Assembly (NCBI RefSeq): GCF_004354555.1
Contig: NZ_PUFH01000005.1
Location: 186,001 to 250,000, forward strand
Source of the DNA: Leuconostoc citreum
GTDB lineage: Bacteria > Bacillota > Bacilli > Lactobacillales > Lactobacillaceae
Reading direction: 5' to 3'
DNA: 64,000 nt
The stretch's first letter is position 1. Each line of letters opens with the position of its first letter. Both the position numbers and the translations under genes were made by a program. The notes under the pieces were generated by a model. The model made no database searches, was not told the DNA's origin, and worked only from the letters and a program-made list of their open reading frames with translations. Positions 14,376-17,072 of this stretch are shown in pieces.

Positions 14376-14394
14376 AGCAGTTCTTTTTATTTAC
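14355..14394. terminator. Bidirectional terminator between rnhB and the Crp/Fnr-type gene
   Basis: A perfect 17-base inverted repeat: GTAAATAAAAAGAACTG (14355-14371) with CAGTTCTTTTTATTTAC (14378-14394). Its left arm includes the rnhB 3' end, and its right arm includes the stop of the convergent regulator gene. Confidence 0.9.
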
Positions 14395-15035
14395 AATAAA
14401 GTGACTTCTCGCTTATTAAGTTTTATTTTACCGTCTCGCGTTAGTTTATTAAATAAGCGGCTTAGTGTTTCCGGTGTAATATGTAGCGAGGCAGCAAGTT
14501 CTTTTTTGGTAACGTCTAGATGAAATGTTTTGCTCATACGAATTGCAGATAAATCTTCAAAGTATTGTACGAGTCGTTCATCAGCATTTTGTAATGATAA
14601 ACTAATTTGACGTTGTTCAAGCGCCGTCAGACGTTCTCCATAAGTATTCAACATTTTTAAAGCCAATGAAGTATTTCGGTGTAATAATGCTTGGAAATCT
14701 TTTCGACGAATCATACAAATGGCAGAATCAACTTTAGCGCGTGCAAAATGATGATGTTTAGCATCTGTAAAAATAGATGCTTCGATATCCATTTGGTGAT
14801 TAGTTAGTGAATAAAGCAGTAACTCTTGGCCGTTATCGTTCACGTTAAAAATGTCAACTTGACCAGAATCGACGACGAAAAGCGCTGATAAATCATCGTC
14901 TGGTTCATAGATATAGCTTCCAGCTGAATATTTCTTTTGATGTGTTGAGATAGTGACCAGTTGTGCAATAATATCGTCAGGCAAATGCGAAAAAATCGGA
15001 GCAGCTTTCACACAAGCAAATTCAGAATGTGACAT
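14391..15035 (-). CDS. Crp/Fnr family transcriptional regulator
   Basis: 214 residues: an N-terminal cyclic-nucleotide-type beta-barrel (about 12-125), a long dimer helix (about 125-150) and a C-terminal winged helix. The recognition helix PETLSRLFNKL keeps the E-x-x-S-R pattern of Fnr (Glu189, Ser192, Arg193). There are only two cysteines (8 and 107), so an Fnr-type iron-sulfur cluster is unlikely; a His triplet at 94-96 could bind metal or haem, which is speculation. It is divergent from nox, with a Fnr-like palindrome between them. It probably controls nox and perhaps itself. Confidence 0.88.
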   Translation of the reverse strand: MSHSEFACVKAAPIFSHLPDDIIAQLVTISTHQKKYSAGSYIYEPDDDLSALFVVDSGQVDIFNVNDNGQELLLYSLTNHQMDIEASIFTDAKHHHFARAKVDSAICMIRRKDFQALLHRNTSLALKMLNTYGERLTALEQRQISLSLQNADERLVQYFEDLSAIRMSKTFHLDVTKKELAASLHITPETLSRLFNKLTRDGKIKLNKREVTLL

Positions 15036-15048
15036 ATTTCACTCTTTC

Positions 15049-15062
15049 TTGACATGAGTCAA
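15049..15062 (+). promoter_or_regulatory. Fnr-like operator TTGAC-N4-GTCAA
   Basis: TTGACATGAGTCAA is a perfect dyad with 5-base arms, one base per arm away from the Fnr consensus TTGAT-N4-ATCAA. Its centre (15055.5) is about 41.5 bases upstream of the likely nox transcription start, the classic class II activator position. It also lies 14 bases from the start codon of the divergent regulator gene. Confidence 0.65.
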
Positions 15063-15082
15063 TTTTTTGTTATTCATTTGAT

Positions 15083-15090
15083 TATACAAT
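15083..15090 (+). promoter_or_regulatory. nox promoter -10 element
   Basis: TATACAAT carries a -10 hexamer (TACAAT, 15085-15090). The -35 region is poor, as expected for an activator-dependent promoter with the Fnr-like box overlapping it. Confidence 0.55.
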
Positions 15091-15130
15091 AGATATATAA
15101 AATTAGTTGGTAATCTTTTGGAGGTAGTAT

Positions 15131-16480
15131 ATGAAAGTCATTATTATTGGTTCGACACACGCAGGCACAGCAACAATAAAATCTATTTTAAAGCATAATA
15201 ACGGGGTAGAAATTGATGTTTATGAGAAAAATGATAATGTGTCGTTTCTTTCTTGTGGCATTGCTTTAACAGTACAAGGTGAAGTAAAAGAAATCAATGA
15301 TTTGTTCTATTCTTCGCCTGCTATACTTGAAGAAGCAGGTGCTAATATTCACATGAACCATGAAGTAACTGCTGTTGATACCATTAATAAAACAGTATCA
15401 GTCACTAACTTGGTGACAGGCGTATCATCAGTTGAAAGTTATGATAAATTAGTTGCGACAACTGGATCTTGGCCAATTATACCGCCAATTGCTGGGATAG
15501 AAGATCAACGTATTGTATTGTCTAAAAACTATACGCATGCGAAAGCCTTAATTAATTATGCTAATGATGATCGTATTAAGCGAGTGGTTATCATTGGCGG
15601 AGGTTATATTGGCACAGAATTAGTCGAAGCTTTCAATGTCAAGGGGCGTGAAGTGACGTTGATTGATAACCAGCCAACGGTGTTAAACCGGTATTTTGAT
15701 CACGAATTTACTGAAAATGTCGCTGAATTATTTCAATCTCATGGTGTGGCTGTGGCAACCGGTAAAATGGTTGAAAGTTTTGAAAGTCAAGATGATGCGG
15801 TTATTGTCAAAACAAATGACGGGAATTTTTCAGCTGACTTAGTTGTGATGTCGGTTGGCTTCAAACCAAATACTGGATTGTTTGCGGGACAACTAGGTAT
15901 GACTGGCAATGGCGCGCTATTAGTCAATGATTACATGCAAACAAGTAATCCAGATGTCTTTGCTGCTGGTGATTCAGTCGCGGTGCATTATAATCCAACA
16001 GGAGAGAATGCGTACATCCCCTTAGCGACAAATGCAGTACGTCAGGGAACATTAATTGGCTACAATCTTATGTCACCGAAAGTTAAATATATGGGAACGC
16101 AATCAACATCCGGACTAAAGTTATATGATTTAAATATGGCTTCATCTGGCTTGACTGCAGCCCACGCGCAAGAACTAGGAATCGATGCGGATAGCATCAC
16201 GATGACAGATAACTTCCGACCAGAATTCATGTCATCAACGGAGCCAGTTTTGATGAGTATTACATGGGAACGTCAAACACACCGTATTTTAGGTGTACAA
16301 TTGCAAAGTAAATATGACATTGCACAGTCTGCCAATGCTGCTTCAATTGCCATTCAAAATCGCATGACATTGACCGATTTAGCATTCGTGGATATGCTAT
16401 TCCAGCCTTGGTTTGATAGACCATTTAACTACTTGAATCTTTTAGCGCAAGCAGCCCTAGATAAGGTTGAAAGCGAATAA
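15131..16480 (+). CDS. nox: NADH oxidase (FAD, water-forming type)
   Basis: A 449-residue flavoprotein of the pyridine nucleotide-disulfide oxidoreductase family. GSTHAGTA (residues 7-14) binds FAD, FLSCGIAL carries the single redox Cys42, VIIGGGYIGTELVEAF binds NADH, and VFAAGDSV is the second FAD motif; the C-terminal dimer domain closes it. Such Nox enzymes reduce O2 to water and regenerate NAD+, which spares ethanol formation in heterofermenters. CoA-disulfide reductases are close relatives, but the sequence reads like lactic acid bacterial Nox. Ribosome binding site GGAGG at 15120. Confidence 0.9.
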   Translation: MKVIIIGSTHAGTATIKSILKHNNGVEIDVYEKNDNVSFLSCGIALTVQGEVKEINDLFYSSPAILEEAGANIHMNHEVTAVDTINKTVSVTNLVTGVSSVESYDKLVATTGSWPIIPPIAGIEDQRIVLSKNYTHAKALINYANDDRIKRVVIIGGGYIGTELVEAFNVKGREVTLIDNQPTVLNRYFDHEFTENVAELFQSHGVAVATGKMVESFESQDDAVIVKTNDGNFSADLVVMSVGFKPNTGLFAGQLGMTGNGALLVNDYMQTSNPDVFAAGDSVAVHYNPTGENAYIPLATNAVRQGTLIGYNLMSPKVKYMGTQSTSGLKLYDLNMASSGLTAAHAQELGIDADSITMTDNFRPEFMSSTEPVLMSITWERQTHRILGVQLQSKYDIAQSANAASIAIQNRMTLTDLAFVDMLFQPWFDRPFNYLNLLAQAALDKVESE

Positions 16481-16512
16481 AAAGCACACCTATTCTGCGG
16501 TGTGCTTTTTTT
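16479..16512 (+). terminator. Terminator of nox
   Basis: AAAAAGCACACC (16479-16490) pairs with GGTGTGCTTTTTTT (16499-16512). It may also serve the convergent thiamine-binding gene. Confidence 0.85.
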
Positions 16513-16523
16513 ATTAATGTTTG

Positions 16524-16829
16524 TTAGCGATACTTATCTGTTTTTTCAGCAATTGTTAATACATTGCCATGTGGTGACATATTAATTTTACTGTAAATCA
16601 TAACAGGAATATCGGTTATTTCTGCCGCAACAAGTGGTAAGGCCTTTAAAATAGTCATCAGTTGGTCATAATCGCCTTCAAGTGTGGTTTCGAAAGCGCC
16701 AACCTGATAAGCAATGCGTGTGTCATTAATATAATCAATAACGTGATCGACTATACGGATGACATCGGATTTATCGGATGTCATCGGTAATACTTGAACA
16801 GCTATGCTTGCGTTAATTTGTACCATCAT
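16524..16829 (-). CDS. Thiamine-binding protein (MTH1187/YkoF-like, UPF0045)
   Basis: A 101-residue ferredoxin-like protein starting VQINASIAVQVLP, with YQVGAFETTLEGDYDQLM in the centre and a C-terminal strand containing YSKINM. This is the MTH1187/YkoF-like thiamine-binding group. It is cytosolic and not a transporter subunit by itself. AAGGAG (16835-16840) precedes the ATG. A TPP riboswitch lies 128 bases upstream on the same strand, so thiamine status controls it. It is the only gene in the unit; its physiological job (buffering or HMP/thiamine delivery) is inferred. Confidence 0.82.
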   Translation of the reverse strand: MMVQINASIAVQVLPMTSDKSDVIRIVDHVIDYINDTRIAYQVGAFETTLEGDYDQLMTILKALPLVAAEITDIPVMIYSKINMSPHGNVLTIAEKTDKYR

Positions 16830-16956
16830 ACTTCTCCTTGGGTTCTATGCATTGAAATGGTGCAATAGAACATGTTAAATGAAGTCCTCCCATAAGCGAC
16901 ATTGAAATCCCACATCAAAATATTGAAGCATGATGACACAAAATTATTGATTGCTT

Positions 16957-17036
16957 CGTAATCTTCCTACGCTAGAATGAACTAGATCAGGTTATATGGG
17001 TATATCTCTCAGCCAATAAGGCACCCCAGATTACAC
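16957..17036 (-). ncRNA. TPP (thiamine pyrophosphate) riboswitch
   Basis: On the minus strand the conserved THI-box core is present: GGGGTGCC, then GGCTGAGAG, ATACCC, ACCTGATCTAG, and CTAGCGTAGGAA. P1 closes through GTAATCT/AGATTAC (17034-17028 with 16964-16958). The downstream leader can form GTTCTAT...ATAGAAC just before the ribosome binding site of the thiamine-binding gene. No T-run follows, so translational control is more likely, though this is not resolved. Confidence 0.92.
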
Positions 17037-17072
17037 GTTAATTGCGTTGTCTGTACTTCGACATTTTAGCAT

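Follow-up and report, generated by a model that had tools for sequence, protein, structure and literature searches.

The window analysed here is a stretch of 64,000 nucleotides of Leuconostoc citreum DNA, in which two divergent genes, one coding for a Crp/Fnr-type regulator and the other for an NADH oxidase-like flavoprotein (nox), flank a gap of 95 bp that holds a palindromic box. The features of this locus are the following:

14391-15035, minus strand: Crp/Fnr-family regulator of 214 aa, with Cys8, Cys107 and the recognition helix PETLSR (Pfam, alignment, AlphaFold model)
15049-15062, both strands: box TTGACATGAGTCAA, an exact TTGAC-N4-GTCAA centred on 15055.5, at -41.5 from the predicted nox start
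15081-15086, minus strand: TATAAT, candidate -10 of the regulator, overlapping the nox -10; no clear -35 was seen
15085-15090, plus strand: TACAAT, -10 of nox, starting 22 nt after the box
15097, plus strand: predicted transcription start of nox, 7 nt past the end of the -10
15120-15124, plus strand: GGAGG, putative ribosome-binding site of nox, read from the sequence
15131-16480, plus strand: nox, NADH oxidase-like flavoprotein of 449 aa (family models, solved relatives)
16479-16510, both strands: terminator-like hairpin past nox (two such hairpins found against a shuffled mean of 1.4, weak by itself)

An earlier, sequence-only reading of this DNA had correctly located the box between nox and the divergent Crp/Fnr-type gene, and had placed its centre 41.5 bases ahead of the likely nox start, in agreement with the -10 and the predicted start given above. 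It had also named the target an NADH oxidase, and the protein is Nox-like: the nearest solved chains are named NADH oxidase (5er0, 5vn0, 5voh) and NADPH oxidase (2cdu). The narrower assignment is not supported at the equivalog level, as the top NCBIfam model for the nox protein, that of the H2O-forming NADH oxidase, gives 434 bits against a cut-off of 600. A Thiamine_BP-family gene (16524-16829, minus strand) and the TPP riboswitch upstream of it (RF00059, 69.8 bits; window positions 16947-17038, minus strand) converge on nox.

Membership of the regulator in the Crp/Fnr superfamily was supported by matches to PF00027 (cNMP_binding; 59 bits, cut-off 27.5) and PF13545 (HTH_Crp_2; 40 bits, cut-off 27). 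Its AlphaFold model is fair to good (pLDDT 88, pTM 0.61), and FNR structures rank at the top of a fold search with this model. The recognition helix, P-E-T-L-S-R at residues 188-193, keeps the E-x-x-S-R of Fnr as Glu189, Ser192 and Arg193, as had been proposed from the sequence, and the count of exactly two cysteines (8 and 107) was confirmed. Neither FNR proper nor CRP is supported as the assignment: two cysteines stand in place of the four cluster cysteines of FNR, and the NCBIfam Fnr model gives 56 bits against a cut-off of 228; the CRP model gives 52 bits against 266, and the recognition helix is of the E-x-x-S-R kind. The FLP-type pattern, with one N-terminal cysteine and one near position 107, was found in 72 of the 72 Lactobacillaceae/Lactobacillales rows (duplicates included; 62 rows without duplicates), which upholds the earlier view that the protein is probably not an Fe-S sensor. 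Judged by its cysteine pattern, the regulator would fit the two-cysteine FLP proteins and not the Fe-S FNR. In distant homologs outside Lactobacillales the columns of Cys8 and Cys107 are not invariant, which counts against a redox activator. Cys107 aligns with the cysteine at chain position 131 of the Aliivibrio fischeri FNR constructs, which we take to be Cys122 of FNR, and Cys8 presumably lies, by extrapolation, near the N-terminal cluster loop (FNR numbering). His3, His32 and His94 are invariant in the 14-row alignment, and several FLP-like paralogs have histidine-rich N-ends.

The exact TTGAC-N4-GTCAA has a single match in the 64-kb window, where about 0.07 would be expected from base composition. 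Allowing one mismatch gave no enrichment within the window (five matches against a shuffled mean of 2.55, with 12 of 100 shuffles reaching five), and 18% of shuffled versions of the 95-bp gap contain some 5-4-5 inverted repeat. The palindrome by itself is thus weak evidence, and conservation and spacing have to carry the case for the box. The TTGACA within the box was rejected as an ordinary -35, because neither strand offers an acceptable -10 at a distance of 16-18 nt. The genome that contains the window was also examined for a wider regulon, in view of its 49 TTGAYNNNNRTCAA sites compared to 9 for a reversed-pattern control, and the idea was set aside: of the other 48 sites, 43 fall inside open frames that measure 300 nt or more and five outside such frames, and TANNNT at 22 nt follows one of the 43 and none of the five. 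Box-N22-TAYAMT occurs once in this genome, at nox, and the protein therefore looks like a local, single-target activator.

Across the family, box-N22-TAYAMT is present in 170 of 301 Lactobacillaceae genomes and the reversed pattern in 15 (hand count), a control that differs from the true pattern in composition. In 91 shared genomes a spacing control counted 71 matches for 22 nt, compared with 25 for the spacings 16, 17, 18 and 19 nt combined (hand sum), an excess of about elevenfold per spacing. These family-wide matches will be divided among several Crp/Fnr paralogs. One case is the 22-kb Leuconostoc contig L024 (G016:C2), where a ferritin-family (Dps-like) gene lies beside an FLP-like paralog; the box/-10 layout occurs at 22 nt for the ferritin-family gene and at 21 nt for the gene of the paralog. 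This contig carries several boxes with a -10 after 21-22 nt, and the same site sequences were found at G003:C10 and G005:C22.

Among the 19 Leuconostoc genomes searched, 13, the window's included, carry the regulator beside a nox that is at least 80% identical. All 13 orthologous loci have TTGA-N6-TCAA at the same place, followed by TACAAT after 22 nt, and 12 of the 13 sequences are distinct. In these loci the central N4 of the box has no invariant column, C or T occupies the fifth position of the box, opposite G or A, and 10 of the 22 columns between box and -10 are invariant. The stretch from the box to the regulator start is also nearly invariant in the genus, making the conservation wider than the box, and the genus comparison alone cannot isolate the box. 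The counts omit L076-L084 (same species as among L002-L013) and L014 and L015, which repeat L086 and L094; the region of L013 equals that of L010, and L084 and L013 were kept out of the protein rows because the gene is broken or cut.

A wider comparison was obtained from a GTDB genome scan with 14 aligned regulators, of which the best 80 of 181 relatives were used. Of these 80, 44 are from Lactobacillaceae; nine repeat Leuconostoc nox loci, leaving 35 further loci, which include L117 and L118, with paralogs at 33-34% identity. Among the best 80, the nearest named relatives of the window's regulator come from L. lactis and L. holzapfelii (79% identity). Within the same best 80 of 181, TTGA-N6-TCAA is kept in 35/35 further loci, and in 34 of the 35 the divergent gene behind the box encodes a CHRD-like protein of about 185 aa instead of nox (in L108 the divergent frame has just 119 aa). 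When the Leuconostoc and the further loci were pooled (47), TA[TC]A[AC]T followed the box after 22 nt in 45 loci and after 23 nt in another, the remaining locus having it out of register or not at all; none of the 46 loci with a -10 at 22-23 nt has one at 16-21 nt. The distance from the box to the regulator start varies from 13 to 28 nt (39 loci of this set in which the match starts at a start codon). The fixed spacing on one side and the variable distance on the other indicate that the register is held with the promoter of the target. A minus-strand -10-like hexamer (TATAAT, TATACT or TATATT) occurs at the same offset in 41 of these 47 pooled loci.

The name CHRD-like is only a hint, as the two proteins scanned score 15-16 bits with Pfam CHRD, under the cut-off of 24.1. 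NCBIfam gave no match for this protein, and its structure model is poor (pLDDT 56). The protein has an invariant HWEHFHGFPD stretch (loci L085-L119; e.g. L094:2358-2912), and its gene is also found on 63 plasmid records, those listed calling the product "hypothetical protein". In Levilactobacillus enshiensis (L115:2500-3020) regulator and box are retained and the CHRD-like gene is gone; the box there lies 6 nt after a TATACT facing the regulator.

In four Leuconostoc genomes that lack the ortholog (G001, G014, G015, G016), another nox, 44-46% identical, is preceded on the same strand by a Crp/Fnr regulator that is 31-32% identical to that of the window. In these tandem loci TATAAT or TATACT follows 23 nt after a box that lies ahead of nox, and the minus strand offers just TAAGCT as -10. 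In the same loci (L169-L172) the box overlaps the TGA stop codon of the regulator. The tandem regulators, whose box is of the same kind, have the recognition helix PATLSR and thus lack the Glu, which counts against the operator reading. In a tree with three of the four, the tandem regulators group with the FLP-like paralogs (100/97), and the regulators of the 12 divergent nox loci make up a single clade (100/100) next to those linked to CHRD-like genes; the program warned of long branches, which leaves deep placement unsure. Two further genomes without the ortholog, G013 and G017, have Nox-like genes that are only 33-34% identical, and no box was found in the 260 bp ahead of the three of these that were checked.

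Taken on the sequence data, we put at roughly four in five the probability that the neighbouring regulator uses the box as its operator and thereby activates nox. The site between the two genes would very probably be a real on-switch, because its position is exactly the same in dozens of related bacteria, and perhaps it reads the redox state of the cell. Position -41.5 is that of a class II activator. What was found matches a class II FNR/CRP-dependent promoter, with the -10 in register at 22 nt (45/47 loci), a control with wrong spacings and a predicted start. Activation of nox, which had been expected from the layout alone, would thus agree with the class II geometry, with the -10 at 22-23 nt in 46 of the 47 loci and with the boxes that precede nox in tandem loci.

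In the proposed mechanism, a dimer of the regulator would bind TTGAY-N4-RTCAA centred at -41.5 and recruit polymerase to nox, giving class II activation at a promoter with a poor -35 region. The minus-strand TATAAT (15086-15081) would place the start of the regulator message near 15074. Read in the direction of that message, this predicted start precedes the box by about 19 nt, and occupancy of the box should therefore hinder the regulator's own transcription; the overlapping -10s of nox and regulator would not be used simultaneously. Probably, then, the protein is a dedicated, redox-controlled local activator of nox, and probably it also represses its own gene via the overlapping divergent -10. 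The Fe-S ligand set of FNR is lacking, and Cys8 and Cys107 would be the likely partners of a thiol redox switch, to which we give slightly less than an even chance. Oxygen or oxidation may then raise nox, with Nox in turn consuming oxygen and NADH; both the signal and its sign are predictions.

The same operator and the same activation of nox could go together with a signal other than a disulfide, namely a metal, heme, cluster or small ligand held by Cys8 and Cys107 with His3, His32 and His94, a tentative alternative that we rate below even odds. It would fit the invariance of the three histidines in the 14 rows and the histidine-rich N-ends of several FLP-like paralogs, and the nearest solved sequence is that of DNR, a heme NO sensor. 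Passages of PMC5039431 also cite non-cysteine cluster binding for FlpA, with cluster activation debated. Set against this, both cysteines persist in all FLP-like paralogs, whereas His3 and His94 do not. It is unlikely that the regulator represses nox, or that the box mainly serves the regulator's own promoter and activation of nox is not its job. The box does adjoin the ribosome-binding site of the regulator, just past its candidate -10, and L115 retains it after loss of the divergent gene; however, its register is fixed with the -10 of the target and not with the regulator start, the tandem loci have it past the regulator stop and ahead of nox, and -41.5 is an activator position, as in the FNR class II promoter FF-41.5 given in a passage of PMC4505428.

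A palindrome of the same form lies at the gap gene, where the 5' end predicted for the GAPDH message carries TTGAC-N4-GTCAA, immediately behind TATAAT, in 18/18 main Leuconostoc copies (L216-L233; in the window's genome L040, G000:C3:27907-27920). It is always fully paired (18/18), and the copies that have it include those of G017, a genome lacking any Crp/Fnr match, and of G013, whose match is partial; G018 gave no gap match at the threshold, and the extra copy L234 has no palindrome. Since the palindrome does not depend on a Crp/Fnr gene being found in the genome, an RNA stem-loop, perhaps a stabilising one, is its probable nature, and the gap site was set aside as a target of the regulator. 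Similar palindromes therefore exist for other reasons, and such motifs have to be judged by promoter register. The second gap copy of G017 (G017:C2:145349-147772; L234, L173), which is 71% identical, directly adjoins a Nox-like gene. A stem-loop in the regulator leader, as probably at gap, would accordingly be a foldable structure with precedent, since the strict motif follows TATAAT in all 18 main gap leaders, G017 included. We nevertheless regard it as the least probable account of the nox box: the inner pair is T/G in 4/13 nox boxes (3/12 distinct ones), an A-C mismatch in the regulator message that occurs in 0/18 gap copies, and the tandem-locus box lies in no regulator leader. Control of nox by Rex, the NADH/NAD sensor with the site consensus TTGTGA-N6-TCACAA, would leave the box incidental and is very unlikely. 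No Rex site better than those of shuffles was found in the 95-bp gap, where the best match to this consensus has 8 of 12 letters and is reached by 34% of shuffles, and this target was rejected. In its favour, PMC4972977 describes a motif resembling the Rex site upstream of nox in L. oligofermentans, and Rex regulons that are predicted to include nox in other Lactobacillaceae.

Returning to activation of nox through the box, the comparison of loci suggests a wider reading, to which we give even odds: regulator, -41.5 box and two overlapping -10s would form a portable redox promoter cassette that is constant across Lactobacillaceae, while the gene behind it has been swapped, being CHRD-like in most genera and nox in Leuconostoc. 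In this cassette reading nox would have been captured twice, one of the captures being that by the distantly related two-cysteine tandem regulator. What is new here is the constant promoter cassette whose targets were swapped; protein family, site type and promoter class were already known. If true, it would provide a first functional lead for a well-conserved CHRD-like protein of many lactobacilli, and an example of a fixed promoter whose target gene was swapped. The locus also brings together, in a food bacterium, a regulator, its proposed operator and a single physiological target that can be assayed simply, through NADH oxidation, a grouping that makes the redox-sensing idea directly testable.

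The published physiology on oxygen and Leuconostoc nox is mixed. In L. mesenteroides E30, NOX activity is reported to be higher in respiratory than in anaerobic cultures (passage of PMC8871477); our guess is that this strain has the tandem kind of nox. In the proteome paper PMC7033586, one sentence gives higher levels of acetolactate synthase or of NADH oxidase "for L. gelidum subspecies or B. thermosphacta"; its discussion names acetolactate synthase alone for L. gelidum, a rise of NADH oxidase with oxygen not being clearly reported for Leuconostoc, and its abstract describes both Leuconostoc as without proteomic regulation under modified atmosphere. For L. pseudomesenteroides, one sentence of PMC12010140 mentions variable Crp/Fnr expression. 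In searches of open-licence PMC papers, no link between Crp/Fnr and nox in Leuconostoc was found.

Among the known systems, Rex is likewise a redox regulator predicted to act on nox in Lactobacillaceae (PMC4972977), but it belongs to another protein family, has another site and is a repressor, and the nox gap has no Rex-like site. DNR of Pseudomonas aeruginosa is the best sequence match among solved structures (1.7e-25, with a profile of the 14-row alignment), although its pathway differs from that of the regulator. DNR senses NO through heme. The FNR of Escherichia coli and A. fischeri shares the fold, the E-x-x-S-R, the TTGAY-N4-RTCAA site and the class II position, and has a cysteine aligned to Cys107; unlike FNR, which is global, the window's regulator has two cysteines, no N-terminal cluster motif and a role dedicated to its neighbour. 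FLP half-sites are of the C/A-TGA type, and the FLP of Lactobacillus casei is reported to be a thiol-disulfide switch. According to passages of PMC5039431, FLP-type proteins are Crp/Fnr regulators of Gram-positive cocci and lactobacilli, and sensing by two-cysteine FNR-like proteins is debated. The same source describes FlpS of Streptococcus suis as activating its target better without oxygen and a C129S change as without effect, which counts against both the sign and the switch proposed here. The FLP of L. casei, the FlpA and FlpB of Lactococcus lactis, and FlpS resemble the window's regulator in having two cysteines instead of four (PMC5039431); the targets of FlpS are arginine deiminase genes, whereas the window's regulator sits beside nox with a box at -41.5.
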